Shown here piece by piece: positions 19 through 39,249 of a DNA stretch of 64,000 nt. Location of the stretch: NCBI GenBank assembly GCA_014239155.1, contig JAAZZQ010000075.1, positions 1 through 64,000 on the forward strand. The letters run 5' to 3'. The position numbers and the translations under genes were made by a program. Positions within the stretch are counted from its first letter, which is position 1; the number at the start of each line of letters is the position of its first letter. The notes under the pieces were generated by a model. It was not told where the DNA came from. It saw only the letters and a program-made list of their open reading frames with translations, and searched no databases. The DNA is from Lachnospiraceae bacterium. GTDB lineage: Bacteria; Bacillota; Clostridia; Lachnospirales; Lachnospiraceae.

Positions 19-1884
19 TCAGTTGTCCGGGGAATCCTTCTCCTGCCCGCTGACTTCCCCACAGTCAAAGGCTTCGTCCACCTCTGTATTCGGAGTGACT
101 TTCATGTGGTGCAGATGCTTCACATAGTCCTCAATGTCAAAGGCGTTTTTCTGGTCATAATCGGACAGCTCTTTGTACCTGCCATGCTTCGTTATATCGA
201 ATTTATCCGAGAAGAATGGTCTGACACCTCTAAGCTGCATGATACATTTCCCGCCGTCCATGACCGCAATCTCATCCTGGCTCATCAGCGCCTTCCCGGT
301 CTTTTGGTAATTCAGACCGTAGGACTGCGATGTTCCCCTTGTATCAGAGGTGTTGTAAAGATCAATGGTTTCCTTCCCTAAAACATCTTCCAGCTCTTTC
401 AGGGTGGTTTTTTCTTTCCCTCCGAGGAATAAAGTAGTGTCACAATTCCCTTCGATTGTGTCGGAATTGTCTTTATAAATTGCCTTTAGCTGGGATTTGG
501 ACTGTAAAATAATGGAAGCCGATATTTCACGGCTTCGGATTGTGGCGATCAGCTTCTCAAACTGCGGAATCTGACCGATATTCGCAAATTCGTCCAACAG
601 CATCCTCACATGAACCGGAAGCCTGCCGTTATAGACATCATCTGCCTTGTCGCAGAGCAGGTTAAAGAGCTGTGAATACATGATTGACACCACGAAATTA
701 AACGTGGCGTCCGTATCTGAAATAATGACGAATAATGCCGTTTTCTGCTCTCCGAGCGTGTCAAGCTCCAGATCGTCATACTCCATCAGGTCACGCAGCT
801 CTTTTATGTCAAATGGCGCTAACCTTGCGCCGCAGCTAATCAGGATAGATTTAGCTGTCTTGCCTGCCGCAAGTTTGTACTTTTTATACTGGCGGACAGC
901 GAAATGATTTGGGTCTTTTTCCTCCAGTTCGTCAAACAGAAGGTCAACAGCGTTTTTGAAATTCTCGTCATCTTCCCTTGCTTCGCTTGCGTCAATCAAA
1001 TCAATCAGCATGGCGAAATTCTGTTCTTCTTCCGGGGCTTCGTACCAGATGTAGGCGATGAGAGCTGTGTAATACAGTTTTTCCGCTTTCACCCAAAAAT
1101 CCTCGCCGGATTGTTGCCCCTCCCCTTTGGTATTGACAATAATCGTGTTTACGAGTTTCAAAATATCCTTTTCGCTCCGAAGATAGGCGAAAGGATTGTA
1201 ATGCATGGACTTCGCAAAGTTTATGGTATTGAGGACTTTTATCTTATATTTTCCCTTTTTCAGCATCTTTCCGCATTCGATCAACACGGTGCCTTTCGGG
1301 TCTGTAACTACAAAGGAGCTGTGCATTTGCATGAGGTTCGGCTTAACAAAAAATCTCGTCTTGCCCGAACCAGAGCCGCCGATCACAAGGATATTTTTAT
1401 TCCTTGCATACTTCGGCTGTTTCGGTCTGCCTGACATCATCAGCCTTTCCGTCTGTGTCAGGAGAATATTGTTCTCAAACTCCGAATCCATATATGGCTC
1501 GATGTCTTTCGCATTTCCCCACCTTGCAGAACCGTACTCCACGCCCTGCCGAAACTTCTTGGCATTCTTCGCCTTGAAATAGACCAGAAGCCTTAATGCA
1601 ATCCCGCAGCACACCCCGATCAGCAGGTCTTTCGGGTAAAAACTTGGTAATGGATTAGAAAACAAATCCTCCATTCCCGCCATGACCGCCATCATCTTTG
1701 CGGAAGCGTCCTGCCCCGGCGATACCCGCCACAGACACGCTGTCTTGTCACAGAAATATCCGGCAAGCACATAAGGAAGGTTCATCAGGACAAGTTTCTT
1801 TTTGTCCAGATTCCCGGTCTTTGCCTTGAGGTTCTTCGGAATGGCTTTTAAGTCTTTGGCTATGCCATTTACGATATTGCTCAT
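19..1884 (-). CDS. VirD4/TcpA-type conjugal transfer coupling protein (TraG/TraD family ATPase)
   Basis: This 621-residue protein is the likely coupling protein, the membrane ATPase that brings the relaxosome to the type IV secretion channel. N-terminal hydrophobic stretches lie around residues 33-45 and 86-103. They are followed by a P-loop GGSGSGKT at 169-176 and a Walker B segment MLLDEFANIG beginning at 428. The length fits Gram-positive TraG/VirD4 proteins. Its ATG overlaps the pcfB stop codon (ATGA), so the two are translationally coupled, as in many enterococcal and clostridial conjugative systems. The stop codon is followed after 8 nt by a copy of the repeated intergenic palindrome. 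The family call is firm. Which relaxase it serves cannot be seen. Confidence 0.95.
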   Translation of the reverse strand: MSNIVNGIAKDLKAIPKNLKAKTGNLDKKKLVLMNLPYVLAGYFCDKTACLWRVSPGQDASAKMMAVMAGMEDLFSNPLPSFYPKDLLIGVCCGIALRLLVYFKAKNAKKFRQGVEYGSARWGNAKDIEPYMDSEFENNILLTQTERLMMSGRPKQPKYARNKNILVIGGSGSGKTRFFVKPNLMQMHSSFVVTDPKGTVLIECGKMLKKGKYKIKVLNTINFAKSMHYNPFAYLRSEKDILKLVNTIIVNTKGEGQQSGEDFWVKAEKLYYTALIAYIWYEAPEEEQNFAMLIDLIDASEAREDDENFKNAVDLLFDELEEKDPNHFAVRQYKKYKLAAGKTAKSILISCGARLAPFDIKELRDLMEYDDLELDTLGEQKTALFVIISDTDATFNFVVSIMYSQLFNLLCDKADDVYNGRLPVHVRMLLDEFANIGQIPQFEKLIATIRSREISASIILQSKSQLKAIYKDNSDTIEGNCDTTLFLGGKEKTTLKELEDVLGKETIDLYNTSDTRGTSQSYGLNYQKTGKALMSQDEIAVMDGGKCIMQLRGVRPFFSDKFDITKHGRYKELSDYDQKNAFDIEDYVKHLHHMKVTPNTEVDEAFDCGEVSGQEKDSPDN

Positions 1885-4971: not shown

Positions 4972-6063
4972 TTATGTAATCCCCTTTTTCGCCCACCCTC
5001 CACCGTACATATCATGCTGTACCTCCTGCTGGTAATAATGGCTCATGGTTGAGGGGGCATTGTAAAGTGTGGTAATCAGGTATGCCCTGATATTGGTAAT
5101 CTTTGTTGTGGTATCTTTCATGCACCCCATGACATATTCCACATGGCTGCTGTTCAGTTTCAGGAAACGGGATTTTACAAGCTCATATGGATATTCTTCC
5201 CCGTTGATGCGTATTTTCTCACGTTTTACGCATACCACATCACAGATTGTTTCATAGATTTCCTCGTACATCTCCTTATCGTGATACTGGTCATATTTCA
5301 TGTGATGCTCATATTCGATATTGTCACGGATCAATGCCATATAGGCGGCTGTTTCATCAATCCTATCCATCATATCCGCTTTTTCCTGTGCCACTGGGTT
5401 ATCCACATCTGCCACAGATTGATTGATAAGATTGGTATAACTCACATCGTTATAATTCTGATTGTTATAGTTAGTATTGTTATAATTAGGGACAAATCCT
5501 TTTACTTCTTGAAGTTCAGTTTCTTTACTTGCAGAAGTTAAATTCTTTTCCCTCTTGAAGTCAGATTCCTTTACTTCCAGAAGTTCAGTTTCTTTACTTG
5601 CAGAAGTTAAATTTCTTTCCTTCTTGAAGTAAAGATTTTTTACTTCTGTAGAAACATCAGTGTTTGCGGACTTTTTTTCGCCCTCTTTTTCTGGCACAGA
5701 AGCAAAATTTTTCACATATATGATGTCAGGTTTTCCAAGTCCCCTGCGTTTTTTCTCAATTAGTCCAATTCCATTGTCTGCATCAAGTTCTTTGATAATC
5801 TTTATGCAGGTAGGTTTGGAACAGCCCAAATCCTCCATAATATTCTCCACAGCATAAATAATATATGCCCGGTTTTCATCGTCCAGCCACCCATTTTTCA
5901 TAGACAGCGCCATTCTGTCAAGCATCAGCCCATACAGGAGCTTAGCATCGCTGCTAAGCCCCTTGAAACGCTCGTCCTTTATCAAGAGTCGGGGAACACG
6001 GTAAAAAGAAAACTGCTCCGCTTCAACGCCATAGTAATAATCAAACTTTAATGGCTCGCCCAT
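4972..6063 (-). CDS. repA: Replication initiator RepA (RepA_N family)
   Basis: The N-terminal 120 residues match the RepA_N initiator domain: a stretch from FYRVPRLLI through LSSDAKLLYGLMLDRM, then the winged-helix part CSKPTCIKIIKELD. The C-terminal part resembles the domain often joined to it (DUF6017). The middle, about residues 140-205, is a low-complexity linker with two 23-residue repeats (containing LTSASKETEL) and an Asn/Tyr-rich stretch. The underlying DNA is a 23-bp iteron array. RepA_N plasmids such as pAD1 are known to keep the replication origin inside the rep gene. It is followed downstream on the operon by no partner and preceded by parB (13 nt gap). It probably gives the excised element autonomous replication. 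Confidence 0.93.
   Translation of the reverse strand: MGEPLKFDYYYGVEAEQFSFYRVPRLLIKDERFKGLSSDAKLLYGLMLDRMALSMKNGWLDDENRAYIIYAVENIMEDLGCSKPTCIKIIKELDADNGIGLIEKKRRGLGKPDIIYVKNFASVPEKEGEKKSANTDVSTEVKNLYFKKERNLTSASKETELLEVKESDFKREKNLTSASKETELQEVKGFVPNYNNTNYNNQNYNDVSYTNLINQSVADVDNPVAQEKADMMDRIDETAAYMALIRDNIEYEHHMKYDQYHDKEMYEEIYETICDVVCVKREKIRINGEEYPYELVKSRFLKLNSSHVEYVMGCMKDTTTKITNIRAYLITTLYNAPSTMSHYYQQEVQHDMYGGGWAKKGIT
5446..5490. other. AT-rich stretch beside the iterons, candidate unwinding element
   Basis: Three close copies of GTTATAATT or GTTATAGTT lie at 5450, 5464 and 5479, next to the iterons at 5502. They encode the Asn/Tyr-rich part of RepA. An AT-rich block beside iterons is the usual layout of a duplex unwinding element, but this is inference. 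Confidence 0.4.
5502..5639. repeat. Six 23-bp iterons inside repA, candidate replication origin
   Basis: Units start at 5502, 5525, 5548, 5571, 5594 and 5617, exactly 23 bp apart, and a degenerate seventh starts at 5640. The shared core is close to TTACTTCNNGAAGTT, an inverted repeat; units 1 and 4 have perfect ACTTC/GAAGT arms. Because 23 is not a multiple of 3, the period cannot come from a simple protein repeat: the protein repeats only every 69 bp. This points to selection on DNA, most likely RepA binding. Confidence 0.85.
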
Positions 6064-6076
6064 TCTACCGCCCCTT

Positions 6077-6976
6077 TCACTGTTTCCTCACGCCTTTCGT
6101 GGCGTTCCATTCCTCCAAAAGCTGGATAATGATGCCCTCTATATCGTCATTGGAATAGTCCTCTGAAAAATACCTGCTGATCTTATCGCCTTTGATTGTT
6201 ACTTTTCTTTCCTTCGGCTTTTCCTCCGCCAGTATCAGGCGCACCATTGCCAGCGTAAGCTCACCGCTTTTCCCATACTCCTTCAGCTTTGCCGCCTGTG
6301 CATTGGAAACAGACACGCCCGTTTCCAGAAGGACAGCCTCCACATACTGCTGTTGTTCTTCTGATAAAAAAGAAATGTCCACTCCCTGTGATATTCCTAT
6401 CTTCTTTGTGTCTACCATATCAAGCAGTTCATCAGAAAGCCTTGCAAGCCATACATACCTCTGCACCGTCTTTCCGCTTTCCCCGGCAGCTTCCCCCACT
6501 TCGTCAAGGGTACTGCCGCCCTTGCTGCCCTGATGCTTCATCGCTTCATACTTCATAGCGTAAGCCTTTGCTTTCTCACTTGGCAGAATGTCCTCCCGCT
6601 GGATATTGGAATCCACCATGATAATCGTAGCTTCATCGTCCGTATAGTTTCTTACAATGACAGGCATAGTGTCAAGCCCTGCCAGTTCAGAGCCACGTTT
6701 CCTCCGGTGTCCGGCTATGATTTCATAGCCGCCTTCTGTCCTCGGTCTTGCAAGCCCTGGCACAAGCACGCCATATTTACTGATACTCTCTGTGGTTTCT
6801 TCCATTTTTTCATCATCAAGGACACGGAACGGGTGTCCTTTGAACATATGTAAATCTGCCAGTTTTGCATGAATAATCTGCTCTCCTGAAACATTTTCTA
6901 CAGTTCCGAATAAATCATCATAGCTGTTCAGCCTGACTTTTGATGCGCTTCCTGCCTTACCTACCTTACCTGCCAT
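6077..6976 (-). CDS. parB: ParB/RepB/Spo0J family partition protein
   Basis: The ATG at 6976 is preferred to an upstream TTG because GGAGG lies 9 nt before it. The product has about 299 residues. It shows the ParB CTPase motif around GHRRKRGSELAG, the following NIQREDILPSEKAKAY segment, and a central HTH region (GEAAGESGKTVQRYVWL). The gene overlaps the 3' end of parA by 11 nt, so the pair is translationally coupled. Together they should segregate or position the element's DNA when it is extrachromosomal. A cognate parS site is not obvious; the palindromes in the transfer operon are one candidate. Confidence 0.93.
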   Translation of the reverse strand: MAGKVGKAGSASKVRLNSYDDLFGTVENVSGEQIIHAKLADLHMFKGHPFRVLDDEKMEETTESISKYGVLVPGLARPRTEGGYEIIAGHRRKRGSELAGLDTMPVIVRNYTDDEATIIMVDSNIQREDILPSEKAKAYAMKYEAMKHQGSKGGSTLDEVGEAAGESGKTVQRYVWLARLSDELLDMVDTKKIGISQGVDISFLSEEQQQYVEAVLLETGVSVSNAQAAKLKEYGKSGELTLAMVRLILAEEKPKERKVTIKGDKISRYFSEDYSNDDIEGIIIQLLEEWNATKGVRKQ

Positions 6977-7751
6977 TTCCAAGCACCTCCTTTGTCAAGG
7001 ACTGGTATGCTGCCGCAACTTTGCCTTTCGGGTCATGCAGGTAAATGCTTATGCCCTCTGCGGAAGTTTCCGCCGCCCTCACTGACATTGGTATGCTGCT
7101 CTCAAATATCCTTACATTCTTTCCGTAATTCTCTACAAGTAATGCTGTAATATCCTTTGCATAGTTCGTCCTGCTGTCCACCATTGTCAGAAGGATTCCC
7201 TCAATCTCTAATTTAGGGTTAATCTGCCGCTTTACCTTGCCTATGGTCTTAATAAGCTGCTCCAGTCCTTTCACGGGCAGGTATGCCGCCTGAACCGGAA
7301 TCAGTATGCTGTCGGCACACGCAAAAGCGTTTATCGTTATCATGCCGAGGGAAGGCATACAGTCAATCAGGATATAGTCATACCTCTCCTTAACCATCTC
7401 CACATAGGAACGCATCATAATCTCCCTGCTCATGACATTCACAAGGGAAACTTCCAAGCCGGACAGCTCAATATTCCCCGGCATCAGGTCAATCCCCTCG
7501 TCATGCTTTAAGATACCATAACCCGGCTCTATTTCCTCGTCATTGATGACTTTTTCCATGACATTCGCAAGGGTGACTTTCAGCTTGTCTGGCTCCGTAA
7601 AGCCAAGACTTGCGGTAAGGCTGCCCTGTGCGTCCGCATCAATTACTAAAACTTTCTTTCCCTGCTTTGCCAGCCCGATCCCTAAATTGCTTGTGGTGGT
7701 GGTCTTGCCCACACCACCCTTTTGGTTTGCGATTGCTATAATTTTACACAT
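6966..7751 (-). CDS. parA: ParA family partition ATPase (Soj-like)
   Basis: The protein has 261 residues, the usual ParA length. The deviant Walker A motif KGGVGKTTTTSNLG lies at residues 10-23, the Walker A' DADAQGS near 39, and the Walker B region ILIDCMPSLG near 127. There is no N-terminal DNA-binding extension, so it is the small type that depends on ParB. It is followed by parB with an 11-nt overlap. Confidence 0.95.
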   Translation of the reverse strand: MCKIIAIANQKGGVGKTTTTSNLGIGLAKQGKKVLVIDADAQGSLTASLGFTEPDKLKVTLANVMEKVINDEEIEPGYGILKHDEGIDLMPGNIELSGLEVSLVNVMSREIMMRSYVEMVKERYDYILIDCMPSLGMITINAFACADSILIPVQAAYLPVKGLEQLIKTIGKVKRQINPKLEIEGILLTMVDSRTNYAKDITALLVENYGKNVRIFESSIPMSVRAAETSAEGISIYLHDPKGKVAAAYQSLTKEVLGNGR

Positions 7752-7767: not shown

Positions 7768-7950
7768 TCAGTTAGATTTCTCTTTTATATTGGCTTTCTG
7801 CACTTCCACATAAGCCCGGTAATACCTGTTTGTACCTTTGTTGCGGTACAGTTCTGAAAATTCTGTCACAGCCACTTTGGGCTGTCTTTTCAGAATCTTC
7901 CCAAACCACTTAATATCATTCTTCGTTCCCATCAGTCGAATTTTCAGCAC
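7768..7950 (-). CDS. Small basic ICE protein, unknown function
   Basis: The likely start is GTG at 7950, with GGAGAGG just before it; an ATG at 7932 is an alternative. The product has 60 or 54 residues and is basic (about a quarter Lys or Arg), with an FSELYRNKGTNRYYRAYVEV stretch. It overlaps the end of the gene at 7916-8434 and ends 16 nt before parA, so it belongs to the same transcript. Function unknown. Confidence 0.5.
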   Translation of the reverse strand: MLKIRLMGTKNDIKWFGKILKRQPKVAVTEFSELYRNKGTNRYYRAYVEVQKANIKEKSN

Positions 7951-8434
7951 GTTTCCTCTCCATTTCCGCAAGGATTTCCGTGGTGGATTTCTGTTTCTCG
8001 CAGTATTCCGGGTAGCGGAGCCTGATGCCCTGCCAGAAGTACACCGCATAGCCGCAGCAGAAAATATCACTTACCGAATACTCCCTACACTCCCTTATCC
8101 GCCCGTCCTCGCTCTCATAGTCATCAACGCTTGGCGTTCCGTCTGTGTAAAGGTTAAAGGCAAGCCTCACTACCCGTACACTTCCGCTGGTCTGCCAGCC
8201 CTGATGCAGACATTCTGGCTTGATATACCCGGACTTGATGTCATAAATCTGGCTGAAATGATTTCTTGTGTCCTCTGAAATGCCGAGAATGTAAATCAAC
8301 GCCTTATGGTAGCTGTCCTGATACCTCGCCTGTTCCAGTTTCTCAAAATAAAATTTCTCATGTTCCCCGTTTGCAAAAACCATGTGTGTGTTGTTGGCGC
8401 TCTGCGCCCCTGCTCTTAACGCTGTGTTGTTCAT
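7916..8434 (-). CDS. DUF6075-like ICE protein
   Basis: This 172-residue protein begins after a clear AAAGGAGG. Its sequence, with FANGEHEKFYFEKL, KALIYILGISEDTR and ECLHQGWQTSGSV, matches a family I recall as DUF6075, widespread near the ends of clostridial conjugative elements. Its function is not known. It is the first gene at this end of the element and probably heads the transcript through parA, parB and repA. A weak promoter-like pair TTGTTA/TATTCT (18-bp spacing, 8454-8483) lies upstream. Confidence 0.75.
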   Translation of the reverse strand: MNNTALRAGAQSANNTHMVFANGEHEKFYFEKLEQARYQDSYHKALIYILGISEDTRNHFSQIYDIKSGYIKPECLHQGWQTSGSVRVVRLAFNLYTDGTPSVDDYESEDGRIRECREYSVSDIFCCGYAVYFWQGIRLRYPEYCEKQKSTTEILAEMERKRAENSTDGNEE

Positions 8435-8480
8435 GCCTGAACCTCCTTTAATTAGAATAAAATAGTTGTTTGACTATAAC

Positions 8481-8522
8481 AAAAAAGGACAGTCCCATTC
8501 GTTAAAATGAGATTGTCCTTTA
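8481..8522 (-). terminator. Intrinsic terminator at the ICE end
   Basis: The arms at 8485-8500 and 8507-8522 pair over 15 of 16 positions (one G-U). On the minus strand they are followed by six T. It would stop transcripts coming from hemZ before they enter the element's genes. Confidence 0.7.
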
Positions 8523-8561
8523 AGGCACAATGTTCAGGTATTCACATTTATTGCGTATTAT

Positions 8562-8628
8562 TCCGTACTATCAAGTAAAAAAATGTTGTACTTTTGATGT
8601 ACTTTCCACCAAATCTTGTACTTTTGAG
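8562..8628. repeat. Repeated motifs like integrase arm-binding sites at the ICE terminus
   Basis: TTGTACTTTTGA occurs at 8587-8598 and 8617-8628. A related TGTACTTTCC begins at 8599 and a weaker CGTACTATCAAG at 8564. Repeats of this size within about 80 bp of an element end resemble the arm sites bound by the N-terminal domain of Tn916-type integrases. That is inference by analogy. Confidence 0.55.
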
Positions 8629-8642
8629 GAAATAGAACACTC

Positions 8643-10088
8643 TTAAAAATCTGTGAGCAGCTTCCGTTTTCTCTCAATCATTTCGTCGATTTTTTCTATG
8701 TATAGAGCCACATCTTTCACATTTTCGCTTCGCTCGATACGCCCGTCAGGGTACACCCGTTTTGACACGCTCCCGGCTCCGCAAGCTACGATAGACTGTT
8801 TCTCCTCCATAATCAGAATATTATAAATCCCATATTTTCCCTCCCTCGCATACCCAACATTCTCAAAATTTCCGGACATATTTTTCTGTCGATAGAGATA
8901 ATATGGTTTCATATCTAGTGCATATGCACCCTTCTGCGCAATTTTTATTGTGTTATCTGTATTGTGGAGCATTGTTATGCCGTTTTCCTCAATCCACTGA
9001 CTGAGTTTTGACGCCCGCTTAACTGCAAGTGAATGCACTGTTAAACTGTCAGGATTCAACTTTATTATCTCATCAATTGTATGTTGCACGTCGATTTCTA
9101 ATTCTCCTGGAAGTCCTAAGATAATATCCATATTAATGTTGTCAAATCCTGCATCACGTGCAAGATGAAATGCATTCTTTACTTGGTTCACAGTATGCTG
9201 CCTGCCAATATATTTTAATGTCTCATCCTTCATTGTCTGTGGATTTACTGAAATGCGGGTCACACCATACTTTTTTAGCACATCAAGCTTTTCTCTTGTA
9301 ATGCTGTCCGCCCGCCCTGCTTCTACAGTAAATTCTATTACCTGTTGAAAATCAAGCCTATCACGCACATACTGCAACAGCCTGTCCAATTCCTCTGCCT
9401 CCAATGTTGTAGGCGTTCCACCGCCAATATAGACAGTATCTAATATCTTATTTTTGTATCTTTCCGCAACAAAATCAATTTCCTGAAAAAGTGCTTGCAA
9501 ATATTCTTCTACTCGATTGCGCCACACTACAATTGGATAAGATGTAAAGGAACAATACAGACAAGTCGTCGGGCAAAATGGAATACCAATATAGATGCTA
9601 TAGCCGTCTTCATAGTGAATTTGATCAAGAATTGCTTTCTCGCGTCTAGCAATATCAAGACTTAACTGTGCTTTTTCCTCACTGACTGCATGTGTCTCTT
9701 TCAGCCATGCGATAATCTCCTCATCTTCTTTTCCCTCTGCCAACATTCCCATAGAAAGTTTTGTTGGTCTAATACCTGTAAGGTTTCCCCACGGAAGTGT
9801 CTTTCCTGTATAATCACACAAATCATTATAGAATGATAGCTTACGCTCTTTTTTTGTGACATCTATGTCATCTTTATATGTATGCTCATACTCTTTTTTA
9901 CCATCAATATCAATCACCACTTTCATGTTATTATCATAAAGTAGTACAATAATTTGATTACCACTGTTTGGTTGATTGCTTTGCTGTTCTTCTCCGTACA
10001 CCCTCACATCATGTTCTGGATAAAATGACTTTATTAACGCGTGCAAATCATACTGATAATTTTCCTTATTTGTATATACATTTATCAT
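8643..10088 (-). CDS. hemZ: HemZ-type oxygen-independent coproporphyrinogen III oxidase-like radical SAM protein
   Basis: This 481-residue protein has a family-specific N-terminal region of about 160 residues. The radical SAM cluster motif CX3CX2C follows at Cys172, Cys176 and Cys179 (GIPFCPTTCLYC), then GGGTPTTL and the HemN-like C-terminal part. The family is annotated as coproporphyrinogen dehydrogenase HemZ, but many members lack proven activity. Its 3' end is the chromosomal border of the ICE. In related Clostridia the relA-MBL-hemZ order is common, and hisS/aspS often follows; here the ICE separates whatever follows. Confidence 0.92.
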   Translation of the reverse strand: MINVYTNKENYQYDLHALIKSFYPEHDVRVYGEEQQSNQPNSGNQIIVLLYDNNMKVVIDIDGKKEYEHTYKDDIDVTKKERKLSFYNDLCDYTGKTLPWGNLTGIRPTKLSMGMLAEGKEDEEIIAWLKETHAVSEEKAQLSLDIARREKAILDQIHYEDGYSIYIGIPFCPTTCLYCSFTSYPIVVWRNRVEEYLQALFQEIDFVAERYKNKILDTVYIGGGTPTTLEAEELDRLLQYVRDRLDFQQVIEFTVEAGRADSITREKLDVLKKYGVTRISVNPQTMKDETLKYIGRQHTVNQVKNAFHLARDAGFDNINMDIILGLPGELEIDVQHTIDEIIKLNPDSLTVHSLAVKRASKLSQWIEENGITMLHNTDNTIKIAQKGAYALDMKPYYLYRQKNMSGNFENVGYAREGKYGIYNILIMEEKQSIVACGAGSVSKRVYPDGRIERSENVKDVALYIEKIDEMIERKRKLLTDF

Positions 10089-13983: not shown

Positions 13984-15096
13984 TCAACCTATCTCTGTCC
14001 ATTCCACTTCTTCCTGTTGTTCAATTATCTCATAGTCTATATTAAGTGCATTGCATCTTTCCCGAACCACTTCCTGAACTTCCTCCTCCGTAATCCAATT
14101 AATTCCCGCCTCATCGCGACATCGATTGATATAAGTCTCACATAAAGCAATCTGTTCCTCGGTGCACTCACTCAAATCATAAGTGTGCAATGTTTTATCG
14201 CCAATTGTATGAAACATTACAGAAAGCAAAATATCCTCATTTCCCGCAAACACTTCATTGTAAATCGCTTCATTTATATAGCTTGCCCACCATCCACTCA
14301 TAATCTCTGTCGCGTAAATATCTGCATTCTTTCCATTTGCAAAAATCGCAGATACTGCCACCAAATGGTCTCCTGCTCCACCGGAACCACCTGACACAAG
14401 CAATCCATTTTTACAGGCTTTTGTATAATTGCGCGCCCAACACTCATAAGAACTTGTCAAATATAACTTTCCTTGATTCTCTGCAATCATATAGACAGCA
14501 AAACTATCATCATCTGGCGCATAAATTTCAAGTCCCGAAAACTTCACCAACAAAATGCGTGTATGATTGTCTGAACTTTCCAGATATGCATATTGGGCGT
14601 TGTCATAAGAAGTTTTTGTTGAATACTCAGGGTCAAAATAACTTGTATTTACATAGCTCCCTAGCTCTGCAAATGTATAGGTCTTACCTGGTTCCAAATT
14701 ATAAGTTATGTAATCACTCTGCGGAAAATCTTCTTCTACAGTCACCGAAACCTCATTTTTTATAAACGCGGTATATAAATCCTGTGTCGTTTCATAATTC
14801 TGTATATTGTCAGATGCTTCCTGTATTGTTTCATGATTTTGTGTATTATCAGATGCTTCCTGTGGTGTTTCATTGCTCTGCACACTGTCAGGCATCTCAA
14901 TATTTTGTGTACCATCAGGCGTTTCCTGTAAAAAACTTTTCTGTTCTGTATCATTTTTCGTATTATTTTCCTGATCGATTTGTGTTTTTGTCGCTTCGTT
15001 GTCATTCATATCAATGGAGCGTGTCCCTTGTTTATTACAGCCAGTAAATGTTATTGTTATCCCTATTAGCAATATTGCTACAACTTTCTTTTTCAT
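13984..15096 (-). CDS. Lipoprotein with Gln/Asn/Thr-rich repeats, unknown function
   Basis: The N-terminus has a Lys-rich start, a hydrophobic run and a lipobox TFTGC with Cys at residue 20, so the 370-residue product is probably a membrane-anchored lipoprotein. Residues about 57-107 form a flexible linker of repeated units (ETPDGTQNI and EMPDSVQSN, then two 13-residue units with QEASDN). The C-terminal 260 residues look globular but match nothing I recognise. Its start is 30 nt after the ABC exporter gene, so it may be the last gene of that operon. Confidence 0.75.
   Translation of the reverse strand: MKKKVVAILLIGITITFTGCNKQGTRSIDMNDNEATKTQIDQENNTKNDTEQKSFLQETPDGTQNIEMPDSVQSNETPQEASDNTQNHETIQEASDNIQNYETTQDLYTAFIKNEVSVTVEEDFPQSDYITYNLEPGKTYTFAELGSYVNTSYFDPEYSTKTSYDNAQYAYLESSDNHTRILLVKFSGLEIYAPDDDSFAVYMIAENQGKLYLTSSYECWARNYTKACKNGLLVSGGSGGAGDHLVAVSAIFANGKNADIYATEIMSGWWASYINEAIYNEVFAGNEDILLSVMFHTIGDKTLHTYDLSECTEEQIALCETYINRCRDEAGINWITEEEVQEVVRERCNALNIDYEIIEQQEEVEWTEIG
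14792..14925 (-). repeat. In-frame coding repeats in the lipoprotein linker
   Basis: Imperfect tandem units containing TCAGATGCTTCCTGT recur with a period of about 39 bp, plus shorter related units. They encode the ET.Q.ASDN.QN linker. Variation in copy number between strains would be expected. Confidence 0.6.
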
Positions 15097-38300: not shown

Positions 38301-39249
38301 TCTCTTTTAACGCAGGATCATTATATTCTTCAAAAAGTCGATAATAATAATTAGGCCAAACCGCTGGAAGATTATAAGATTTACTTGACGCTGCTTTTAC
38401 TGCTTGCCCTACAGTCCGTTTTTCACCAAGTAAAATAACAGCCACGCCATCTCCAAAACTCTTAAGCTCACCGTCAAAGCCTTCTGCAACAGCCAGCGCA
38501 TCTTCTTGGCTGTCTGTCAAATATACCACTTCGCCTTTTACATAAGCCTCAGAATCATCGGATTCCTCCTCAAGTTCTAATATCTCATCCGCAAACGCTG
38601 CTAATGTGGATTTATCTTTCTGCTGTTTTGACGAAAGTGTATAATCTTCTGGAAGCCCCGGAAATAGAGCATCTGTTTTTTCAGCTGTCTCTGTTTCTAT
38701 CTCCTCTAAAGTCAATGTCGTCTCTTCTGTCTCTGTTTCTTCTATCGTTGTTTCTTCCGTCACTGTTTCTTCTATCATTGTTTCTTCTGTCGTTGTCTCT
38801 TCTGTCTCTGTTTCTTCTATCGTTGTTTCTTCTATCGTCGTCTCTTCTGTCTCTGTTTCTTCTATCGTTGTCTCTTCTGTTGACTCTGTTTCTGTTGCTT
38901 CTAATTCTGTTGTTTCTTCTATATCAGAAGAAACAATCTCCATTGTTGTTTCTTCCGTTGAAATGGCTTCCGTTGTTACTTCTTCAATGGAAACTGTTTC
39001 TGTCACTATCTCCTCAGAGGAAGAGGACTCTATTGTCTCCTCGAAAGAATCTGATTCCTCTACGGTTTCTGTTATCGTCTCCTCTTCAGATTCCATAGCA
39101 TCTATCAGCGTTTCCAAATTTGTTTCTGTTTCAGACGCAATAGCATCTGCCTTATCGTTCGATTCTGCCAAAACGGTTATCCCTGTTGTATTGAGAACCA
39201 TAGACACAGCTAATATGGCAGAAACGATCTTTGTTCTCTTTAATTTCAT
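35365..39249 (-). CDS. Secreted subtilisin-like serine protease with Ig-like repeats
   Basis: The ATG at 39249 (GGGGAAAGG before it) gives 1294 residues with a signal peptide (KLKRTKIVSAILAVSMVL). Next come about 160 residues of acidic Thr/Glu repeats, a propeptide-like domain (about 240-306), and an S8 catalytic domain with Asp349 (IIDTGV), His384 (GHGTHVAG), oxyanion Asn476 and Ser541 (GTSMACP). The C-terminal half holds a chitobiase-like C-terminal segment and several bacterial Ig-like (BIG2) domains. There is no LPXTG anchor, so attachment may be by the Ig domains. It follows a lipoprotein gene that resembles its own propeptide. Confidence 0.93.
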   Translation of the reverse strand: MKLKRTKIVSAILAVSMVLNTTGITVLAESNDKADAIASETETNLETLIDAMESEEETITETVEESDSFEETIESSSSEEIVTETVSIEEVTTEAISTEETTMEIVSSDIEETTELEATETESTEETTIEETETEETTIEETTIEETETEETTTEETMIEETVTEETTIEETETEETTLTLEEIETETAEKTDALFPGLPEDYTLSSKQQKDKSTLAAFADEILELEEESDDSEAYVKGEVVYLTDSQEDALAVAEGFDGELKSFGDGVAVILLGEKRTVGQAVKAASSKSYNLPAVWPNYYYRLFEEYNDPALKENSEYYQWAHEYIGDQYAWENGYKGEGVKIGIIDTGVHSTHEDLKENVAQNLTMVSEGGAATTTDPEGHGTHVAGIAAAVANNGKGGAGIAPDAQIYAYSVMDSNGNMLDEYILRAINRAIDDGVEVVNMSLGSGYYNGNEESIIEKAYQNGVAIFAAAGNEATNGYEYPASYDNVCSIAAIMQDGSKAGFTNYGDMIDLAFPGVEIYSTINDSDDQSYDFMQGTSMACPVAAGTAAVILSASNEIDALKGKSGSQKVDALFSIMKKNVVKSSSSKIGAGTTYLPKVLGIKIAAVDEAPQAPVIKNTENTTTFKKEWEDISIECSSPDTEIYYSINGKKPAFKNGIVTNGEPLIEGKARVGGAKQVTLSVIAVNHITGKASKVVSQKYSFEPEPSSVTITAADSVNKIAKGKSLTLYAAVEPSYAKFGNGKVVWEVADNYSGVKVNNNGKVTIEKTASAGECKILAKAGAVQDEFYLTILDSVKIKKITFVTKKYTIYAGDSINILKKEDDSNNLTIDGGEITDIVWSSNNQKVAVVDANGMVTALGPGKAVIKATANDGSKKAASCTITVKQLADSIVLKGPEKIAAGKSAVIQASILPINVSSKKLNWAVKPIENASGIVTVNASGKVSVKKGASGKFEVTATEKGVPEGKEPKMASTSFEVVTSPITKIGIPKTVNLFTVSGNYNAPTQFQLKPEVEGGDGKGIQFISSAPGIASVDSSGLIVAHSSGKATITCSATDGSNKKAKCNVVVSVPMSRIAIVPKNGNEGIVSVGSKITLSAKISNNFGKAANQKVKWSIMSGGEQYAEIDENKGIIKGITSVITSNRYPQIYVKAEAADGSGVSAVYPVIVIPKVDKLNFEWDGFSNNINSKGIYFSLSMSMKGYPNEVFVPSYNVDISGGKGIGYHTIKGGFILVPTKPTTDKTYSQLVISENMVRCKDSDIQSVTVTVTLKDGSNKKAVQKLNLIYTKDQQIILLE
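38680..38910 (-). repeat. Coding minisatellite in the protease gene
   Basis: The DNA is made of short units such as TCTTCTATCGTTGTT (plus strand), which encode TIEETET-like acidic repeats. Units of 15, 18 and 30 bp are mixed. Copy number is likely to vary between strains. The opposite strand also reads as long Leu/Ser-rich open frames, which are shadows. Confidence 0.75.

Follow-up and report, generated by a model that had tools for sequence, protein, structure and literature searches.

A candidate replication origin inside repA: 23-bp iterons of a Lachnospiraceae element and their covariation with the RepA N-terminal domain

The repA locus and its 23-bp array

The stretch of Lachnospiraceae DNA analysed here, called the window, comprises 64,000 nucleotides (nt) of contig JAAZZQ010000075.1 (C49 below) and carries a repA gene for an initiator of the RepA_N family, inside which lies a tandem array of 23-base-pair (bp) units, or iterons. 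The gene is located at 4972..6063 on the minus strand and encodes 363 amino acids (aa), with a RepA_N winged-helix domain at residues 19-93 (Pfam PF06970, E 1.4e-28, 99 bits against a cut-off of 30), a linker at about residues 121-235 and a DUF6017 domain at residues 229-355 (Pfam PF19481, E 3.8e-38). It starts 13 bp past the end of parB, the gene for a partition protein (6077..6982, minus strand; PF02195, E 1.2e-17; TIGR00180, 85.1 bits, cut-off 58.45), and upstream of this follow parA for a partition ATPase (6966..7751, minus strand; PF13614, E 2.2e-57) and a DUF6075 gene (7916..8434, minus strand; PF19552, E 8.3e-57), all in the same direction. Downstream of repA, toward window base 1, are small genes and then the gene for a VirD4-like conjugal transfer coupling protein of the CD1115 family (19..1884, minus strand; NF045973, 567.5 bits, cut-off 250). 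Iterons, an AT-rich block, an initiator gene and partition genes together are the layout of a RepA_N plasmid replicon.

The iteron array spans 5487..5647 on the minus strand and consists of six 23-bp units (5510-5647) and a half-degenerate seventh (5487-5509). Tandem Repeats Finder reported a period of 23 with 6.4 copies at 5501-5647 and a period of 69 with 2.1 copies at 5501-5646, and a separate repeat search gave unit spacings of 23, 23, 23 and 23. In each unit the arms GAAGTnnn and nnnACTTC converge on an A-tract. The first unit, U1 (5625-5647), reads AGAAGTAAAAAATCTTTACTTCA on the coding strand and has all 16 arm bases of the perfect site; it is followed on the same minus strand by U2 (5602-5624, 14/16), U3 (5579-5601, 13/16), U4 (5556-5578, 14/16), U5 (5533-5555, 13/16), U6 (5510-5532, 13/16) and U7 (5487-5509, 11/16), the last with an intact left and a degenerate right arm. 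The dyad with co-varying arms and the A-tract at its centre is GAAGTAAA-AAATC-TTTACTTC, and the consensus inner bases are AAA/TTA. Sites with at most three mismatches from the perfect site numbered six in the whole 64 kb, where 0.48 were expected, and all six lie in the array. The original prediction of six regularly spaced units and a degenerate seventh inside repA was thus confirmed by repeat finding. Its extent of 5502-5639 was correct in location and slightly too narrow, and its ACTTC/GAAGT core does exist but is the junction of adjacent units, whereas the co-varying dyad sits on the A-tract. Two other tandem repeats were seen in the window, at 38723-38880 (15 bp, 10.5 copies) and 14780-14873 (39 bp, 2.4 copies), both with periods that are multiples of 3.

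The codon frame shifts from one unit start to the next (2, 1, 0), so that the amino-acid repeat needs three units (69 bp) and returns every 23 residues, as had been proposed. The self-match of the linker at lag 23 was 91/136, compared with 50.0 +- 5.4 (largest 73) in 20,000 synonymous recodings that used the codon usage of the element and 40.8 +- 5.0 (largest 60) in 20,000 codon shuffles. None of the 20,000 recodings reached the observed self-match at any of the lags 23, 46 and 69. The 23-bp period is a DNA-level signal, as originally predicted.

Searched with phmmer against solved chains, RepA matched 4pt7, 4pql, 5kbj and 4pta, and a Foldseek search with its model returned the same four entries (E 8e-7 to 5e-5); entry 5kbj carries the title Rep-DNA complex. 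The full-length model had a mean predicted local distance difference test score (pLDDT) of 53 and at E <= 0.001 matched only the N-terminal structures. The linker, with a pLDDT of 22-31, is read from the model as disordered. The DUF6017 domain, modelled separately at a pLDDT of 73, is conserved, with a mean column identity of 80% over 28 sequences, and no paper on it was found in the open-licence literature searched.

Conservation of the period and covariation with the RepA N-terminal domain

Homologous repA genes were sampled non-randomly, from tool-given loci together with 60 and later 40 places hand-picked among the matches listed. A match was present in 131 of 299 genomes of the family, a genome-contig search kept 80 of 124 relatives, and a viral collection gave 2. 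The homolog set comprised 181 loci, including the 60 hand-picked places, stretches from the genome of the window itself and four plasmid stretches; 162 of these gave a RepA_N open reading frame of at least 150 aa, and 147 distinct DNA sequences remained, the window included. The best significant period of the linker was 23 bp in 123 of the 147 genes, among them the window, a sister copy on contig C36 of the same genome and three plasmid genes. In these genes the spacing was kept while the units changed with the cognate RepA N-terminus, which is the pattern that had been foreseen for an alignment of related genes. Other best periods were 24 bp (6 genes), 15 (5), 22 (3), 34 (2) and 17, 30 and 12 (1 each), with none in 5; those of 15 bp corresponded to the AT-rich block in the genes looked at. 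Among 59 held-out repA genes the period was 23 bp in 36, 15 in 6, 24 in 2, 34 in 2, and 21 and 22 in 1 each.

Differences in array length of at least 20 bp between repA pairs that were 75-99.5% identical were most commonly 69 bp (96 pairs, which are not independent), that is three units or one frame cycle, followed by 54 bp (36 pairs), 113 bp (32) and 42 bp (29). One such gene (L040) encodes a protein 84% identical to the RepA of the window, is 69 bp longer and has 9.7 units vs 6.4. Arrays of 24 bp, which stay in frame, were observed at loci L128 and L129 (genome G077) and also at L149 and L152; in L128 and L129 they encode 8-residue repeats such as EVGKRRPQ, and the extra base sits in the spacer between the arms. 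Linker periods of 17 or 34 bp were seen at L012, L018, L117, L201 and L203, with ACCGG/ACCAG-like units in the first three.

Across genes the outer arms GAAGT/ACTTC are near-constant and the centre is A-rich, whereas the inner three bases vary, and they change together in both arms (TCG/CGA, CGG/CCG, TCA/TGA, GTG/CAC, AAA/TTT, GTC/GAC and others). The inner triplets were fully complementary in 70 of the 123 consensus units; the remainder, such as AAA/TTA of the window, AAA/TTG and TCA/CGA, mismatch at one position at least. Arrays with fewer than three units or an outer-arm score below 5.5 were dropped, and the 116 of 123 kept were thinned to 56 at below 92% identity in the N-terminal domain (NTD), or 55 for Mantel tests. 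In these 56 arrays the inner pairs were complementary at 0.786 within their own unit vs 0.308 +- 0.041 when right arms were swapped (largest 0.464 of 5000), and over 25 distinct classes the values were 0.653 vs 0.293 +- 0.054 (largest 0.520). Because the inner arms are compensatory, the unit resembles the site of a two-fold symmetric protein.

The iteron class followed the NTD of RepA. A partial Mantel test of unit against NTD, given the C-terminal domain (CTD), yielded 0.443 (55 arrays; 0/2000 permutations), vs -0.243 for unit against CTD given the NTD. Of the 248 aligned columns of the two domains taken together, 84, 82, 85 and 86 ranked first to fourth for excess change in class-switched pairs, with values of 0.0126-0.0092 vs a largest of 0.0067 when labels were permuted 2,000 times without regard to relatedness (533 switched and 184 unswitched pairs, 71 genes). 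The codons of residues 82-86 (S-K-P-T-C) are at 5806..5820 on the minus strand, at the start of a predicted helix 83-93, and residues 82, 84, 85 and 86 are those that track the iteron class. On the general pattern of winged helices we take helix 83-93 to be the recognition helix. The residues were chosen on discovery data that the column test also uses, and the held-out genes are the independent test.

In the discovery genes the four residues SPTC occurred with AAA in 15/15, SEKA with CGG in 7/7 and AEKC with TCG in 6/6, while AATC occurred with TCA in 6/7, GQKA with GTG in 5/7 and GNKA with TTA in 5/8; AQKA fitted in 2/3, GKKA, GKYA and AKKA occurred with GTC in 3/3, and GDKA and GDKG with CGG in 3/3. 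When inner bases were predicted from donors less than 0.65 identical elsewhere in the domain, agreement was 0.618 with the four residues, 0.275 with the remainder of the domain and 0.268 with a random donor (71 genes). Pairs with the same helix and below 0.60 identity elsewhere in the domain matched at 0.464 (14 pairs) vs 0.279. On a quick tree, independent pairs linked AAA with P84 in 7.0 of 8 cases (median p 0.016, with values from 0.016 to 0.070), TCA with A84 in 4.9 of 5, CG-containing classes with an acidic residue 84 in 4.7 of 6 (p 0.22), GTG with Q84 in 0.9 of 4 and TTA with N84 in 0.5 of 1. CGG with E84 gave 2.0 pairs of the same and 1.6 of the other kind, and D84 also pairs with CGG.

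The helix table was fixed from the discovery genes before any new units were read. From the 36 held-out genes with a 23-bp array, nine at least 97% identical to a discovery gene and four with a helix not in the table were removed, and the 23 left were not thinned among themselves. Their inner bases were predicted at 0.783 vs 0.460 +- 0.051 in shuffled assignments (0/5000), and in 16 of the 23 the table missed no more than one of the six bases. Covariation gives strong support to the RepA NTD as the probable reader of the iterons. It also seems probable, with appreciable room for doubt, that RepA_N initiators from Lachnospiraceae elements to staphylococcal plasmids share a grammar of in-gene 23-bp origins with a readable code, in which residues 82, 84, 85 and 86 pick the inner arm bases and lineages move to another class when a few helix residues change along with every iteron, and that many linkers hold further DNA-level origin elements. 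In the proposed code P84 would specify AAA, A84 TCA, E84 or D84 mostly CG-containing classes, Q84 mostly GTG, K84 mostly GTC and N84 often TTA or TTG. No report of a residue-level iteron code was found in the open-licence literature searched.

Sequences after the array and comparison with known systems

Directly after the array lies an AT-rich block with a period of 15 bp and 3.9 copies (5429..5487, minus strand), a candidate unwinding region. The GC content is 0.23 over the 60 nt past the array, and the AT-rich block of the original prediction is hereby recovered. Over 62 genes, made up of the 56 thinned homologs and six plasmid genes with hand-set array ends, the post-array stretch was likewise AT-rich (mean GC 0.326 vs 0.421 elsewhere). 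Wobble T was favoured in the first 60 nt, threonine being encoded by ACT in 124/150 cases vs 55/287 before the array and tyrosine by TAT in 100/102 vs 667/1008 elsewhere. Lag-15 identity was 0.47 post-array vs 0.33 in the NTD stretch. Past the AT-rich block the window has ATCNATCNATC with a neighbouring ATC, here called the ATCNATC block (5417..5433, minus strand), which is unremarkable in the window alone (2 found, 0.93 expected). In the 62 genes ATCNATC was found 92 times within 150 nt after the array vs 24.7 +- 4.7 in synonymous recodings with the codon usage of the region (largest 36 of 200), in 43 genes and two reading frames. The wobble-T AT block and the ATCNATC block are the further DNA-level elements proposed for many linkers, the latter not in pSK41. 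As a general origin element ATCNATC was rejected, since it was present anywhere in the gene in only 7 of 20 plasmid rep genes, and not in that of pSK41.

An exact match to the DnaA box, TTATCCACA, is located past the ATCNATC block at 5399..5407 on the plus strand; exact boxes in the window alone are unremarkable (6 found, 3.95 expected). In the 240 nt after the array exact boxes occurred in 6 of 56 genes vs 1.2 +- 1.0 when recoded (largest 5 of 300), whereas boxes with at most one mismatch were not enriched there (15 vs 15.5 +- 3.1) and occurred in 32 of the 56 genes in the 240 nt before the array. For representative counts, 115 loci were reduced to 107 full-length genes (the window in, its two copies out) and then to 65 at below 95% identity. 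Exact boxes were present in 9 of the 65, seven at coding positions 641-656 and the others at 805 (L077) and 452 (L032). General dependence on DnaA was rejected on these counts together with the absence of an exact box from pSK41 rep.

The closest likeness was to the plasmid pSK41. According to passages of an earlier study, the NTD of pSK41 Rep binds four Rep boxes in the middle of rep that constitute ori, the central domain encoded by the ori sequences acts as a linker, and a Rep with an in-frame deletion of this domain can rescue Rep-defective plasmids having a functional ori (PMC5703833). These passages agree with the statement in the original prediction that RepA_N plasmids have their origin inside rep. 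In pSK41 rep (NC_005024.1 13205-14164) we found four units spaced by exactly 23 bp, of which GAAGTGTCAAAAGGACACGTC comes first, and directly after them the 15-bp AT-rich repeat ATTGATACTGATTTT. The two genes thus share a RepA_N winged-helix NTD, 23-bp semi-palindromic A-centred units in the linker-coding part and a 15-bp AT repeat after these. RepA_N iterons are described in passages of another study as semi-palindromic with arms converging on an A-tract (PMC7145576), and the units of the window have this form. The pSK41 helix is GKKI and its inner bases are GTC/GAC; the nearest entry of the helix table, GKKA, predicts GTC/GAC, and the table predates retrieval of the pSK41 sequence, whereas the fits of other plasmids were judged after the fact. 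Differences are also evident. pSK41 has four units vs six to seven in the window, its inner bases differ from the window consensus AAA/TTA, its CTD, a partner of DnaG, differs from DUF6017, and its rep has an antisense-RNA leader, as excerpts of the source state, while the repA of the window stands close behind parB. Such leaders seemingly do not occur in genera beyond staphylococci, according to the same excerpts (PMC5703833). ATCNATC and the exact DnaA box are present in the window and neither is in pSK41 rep, and pSK41 is a plasmid whereas the repA of the window is on a chromosome-borne element.

In all, 13 of 20 plasmid rep genes had a 23-bp signal above 200 codon shuffles, including those of pSK41 and other staphylococcal plasmids and of plasmids from Planococcus, Anaerococcus and Aerococcus. 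The genes L178 and L180 belong both to these 13 and to the 147. Not part of the 20 are L179, whose 117-aa frame has no array, and L181, a gene with a 23-bp period that is already included in the 147. In the plasmid genes L182 and L277 the 15-bp block outscored the 23-bp signal, L185 had only two units, and L178 (N84), L184 (N84) and L273 (A84) fitted the helix table poorly. The Anaerococcus plasmid pAPRE01 (L180) and a 592-kb Aerococcus tenax plasmid (L192) each have a 774-bp repA with closely similar iterons and matching neighbours.

Other systems resemble the window in part, as far as the available excerpts of the papers go. The PLE satellite of Vibrio cholerae is likewise an integrating element with a RepA_N initiator, but it is a phage satellite with its origin in a noncoding region and iterons of about 30 bp (PMC7145576, PMC8263062). 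The integrative and conjugative elements (ICEs) of the Tn1549 family and TnGBS, likewise conjugative and integrated, carry ParA along with a RepA_N gene; episomal replication was suggested for them by the authors, and excerpts of that paper describe no iteron array or origin inside repA (PMC4701971). In the hybrid replicon of the Staphylococcus plasmid pPR9 the NTD and the origin region were swapped as one module; there the incoming NTD is not RepA_N, whereas the group of the window changes a few residues within RepA_N (PMC5703833, in excerpt). RepA_N in ICEs of the Tn1549 and Tn5252 families and covariation of RepA_N with the origin in PLEs are, from the portions available, already in print (PMC5703833, PMC7145576, PMC8263062, PMC4701971, PMC8129170). 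No report of iterons inside the repA of an ICE was found in the open-licence literature searched.

The carrier element and the function of the array

Contig C49 starts at window base 1 and one end of the element is visible. The start of C49 is also found at a contig end in C69 (141 bases) and in C42 (86 bases), which makes the left-hand join ambiguous. A second copy of DUF6075-parA-parB-repA, in the same order, is present on contig C36, with a repA that is 80% identical and of iteron class TCA/TGA vs AAA/TTA in the window; the gene ahead of it is a putative lysS. The DUF6075 gene is the last of the element at this end, and an end sequence common to both copies (8555..8603, minus strand; 38/49 bases in a blastn search of 8300-8800 against L177), taken as near the right end of the element, precedes a gene at 8643-10088. 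Eight other genomes were searched for RepA_N genes near a CD1115 coupling protein scoring above the cut-off. At least one RepA_N gene was no more than 15 kb away from it in five (G088, G028, G633, G635 and G636) and no more than 26 kb away in two (G138 and G191), and in G634 only a fragment lay nearby. Genome G636 has on one contig an integrase (1414800), a relaxase (1418325), VirD4 (1479663) and repA (1486006) within about 72 kb, and G088 has relaxase, VirD4 and repA inside 35 kb; their nearness suggests that each set forms one element. From the CD1115 VirD4 coupling protein, the second copy of the repA end and these RepA_N neighbourhoods, the carrier of repA is likely an ICE that is incomplete here.

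The array is probably the initiator-binding part of a theta origin of the pSK41 type inside repA, read by RepA, and the element may replicate as a plasmid. At the level of sequence this is supported by the array, its period, the dyad, the covariation with RepA and the pSK41-like spacing and design; RepA binding, unwinding, a function of the CTD and replication of the element are what we infer from them. In the proposed mechanism RepA dimers would recognise each 23-bp unit by means of the winged-helix domain; the outer arms GAAGT/ACTTC are conserved, and residues 82, 84, 85 and 86 seem to determine the three inner bases of each arm. With RepA on neighbouring units at this 23-bp spacing, the DNA would be bent and loaded so that the adjacent AT-rich block of 15-bp repeats opens, and the DUF6017 domain might then recruit host replication proteins. 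The linker would act as a flexible spacer under little constraint as protein, and we propose that this freedom is what enables repA to host the origin. Once excised, the element, which has parA and parB next to repA, could in this way replicate and persist as a plasmid. The original prediction of an origin within the initiator gene is in part upheld, for the array in a RepA_N gene, the DNA-level signal, the AT-rich block and the likeness to pSK41, while the plasmid-like replication that it implies stays a prediction.

Several results weigh against this interpretation. The 23-bp period is no universal rule, as another or no period was found in 24 of the 147 genes, in 23 of the 59 held-out genes (11 of them with no significant period) and in 7 of the 20 plasmid rep genes (five from lactobacilli or Lactococcus, one split gene and one from S. 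epidermidis). Exceptions to the helix table occurred in the discovery set, namely KEKA and AEKG (CAG), SDKA (AGG) and SKKA (GAA), and three or four of six bases were wrong in 7 of the 23 held-out genes, mostly in arrays with arms other than GAAGT/ACTTC and doubtful unit phase. Neither ATCNATC (0 occurrences) nor an exact DnaA box was found in pSK41 rep. The DUF6017 domain model had 0 matches to solved structures at E <= 0.001, which gives no support to a DnaD-like or pSK41-CTD-like CTD, and the DnaG link of pSK41 is not transferable to RepA. Co-resident copies were compared in 26 genomes with at least two typed copies (38 pairs), using a locus-genome table made by hand and with relatedness within genomes uncontrolled. 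Same-class pairs were commoner than in shuffled data (11/38 vs 4.9 +- 2.0), the opposite of simple iteron incompatibility, and incompatibility as the driver of class diversity was rejected. An integrated element may be exposed to incompatibility only briefly. Finally, chromosomal RepA_N proteins have been speculated to have taken on transfer functions, in an earlier review cited in passages of PMC7145576, and for conjugative elements both replication and transfer have been proposed (PMC4701971, PMC7145576, in excerpt).

The sharing of classes by co-resident copies, the earlier speculation on chromosomal RepA_N proteins and the fact that the element is integrated favour a different use of the array, in which it is still bound by RepA but has been repurposed for autoregulation or conjugative transfer in an element that no longer replicates itself. 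We consider this unlikely though worth keeping in mind. Iterons, AT-rich block and an intact repA beside parA and parB have all been kept, iterons with a 15-bp AT-rich repeat are also found in pSK41, and no further site with at most three mismatches, for example at a promoter, exists in the 64 kb. In TnGBS elements with RepA_N, replication is reported to aid maintenance in transconjugants (PMC4701971, in excerpt).

The array could also be a parS-like partition centromere read by the ParB of the adjacent gene, and parA and parB do lie directly upstream of repA. Tandem repeats are common in centromeres as well. This is nevertheless very improbable, as the units followed the RepA NTD given ParB (partial Mantel 0.457, 0/2000 permutations) and not ParB given the NTD (-0.334) in the 31 arrays for which ParB was found, and ParB was rejected as the reader. 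The tracking residues, moreover, are in or just before RepA helix 83-93, and pSK41 units of like spacing and design are bound by Rep, as passages of PMC5703833 state. Least credible of all is that the repeat belongs to the protein, as 23-residue steps of a disordered linker, and that the DNA period is a by-product. The linker protein does have such a repeat, and one of 5 residues is encoded by the AT-rich block. No synonymous recoding, however, kept any of the three lags, a 23-bp shift changes frame so that a 23-residue repeat is unable to yield lags 23 and 46, and the arms are compensatory DNA palindromes.

With the pSK41-type layout in most genes examined and in plasmids of Bacilli, plasmid-like replication of these elements is directly testable. 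The residue-to-base relation, if confirmed, would make the origin class readable from sequence for many plasmids and integrated elements, and would show clearly, in a single gene, an initiator that changes in step with a binding site present in many copies.

A parA-parB stretch with 83% identity to that of the window was also present in the same genome (L269:8944-10513, contig C2:100943-102512); its open frames are short (181 and 197 aa), and the stretch gave no match to the RepA_N domain. Stand-alone RepA_N domains in frames of about 117-137 aa, lacking linker and CTD, recurred in several genomes (L001 / L176:9389-9757 on contig C47 of the same genome, G028:C82, G636:C7:332101, G634:C36:397978 and L179:7998-8351) and might be left over from full RepA or compete with it for DNA.

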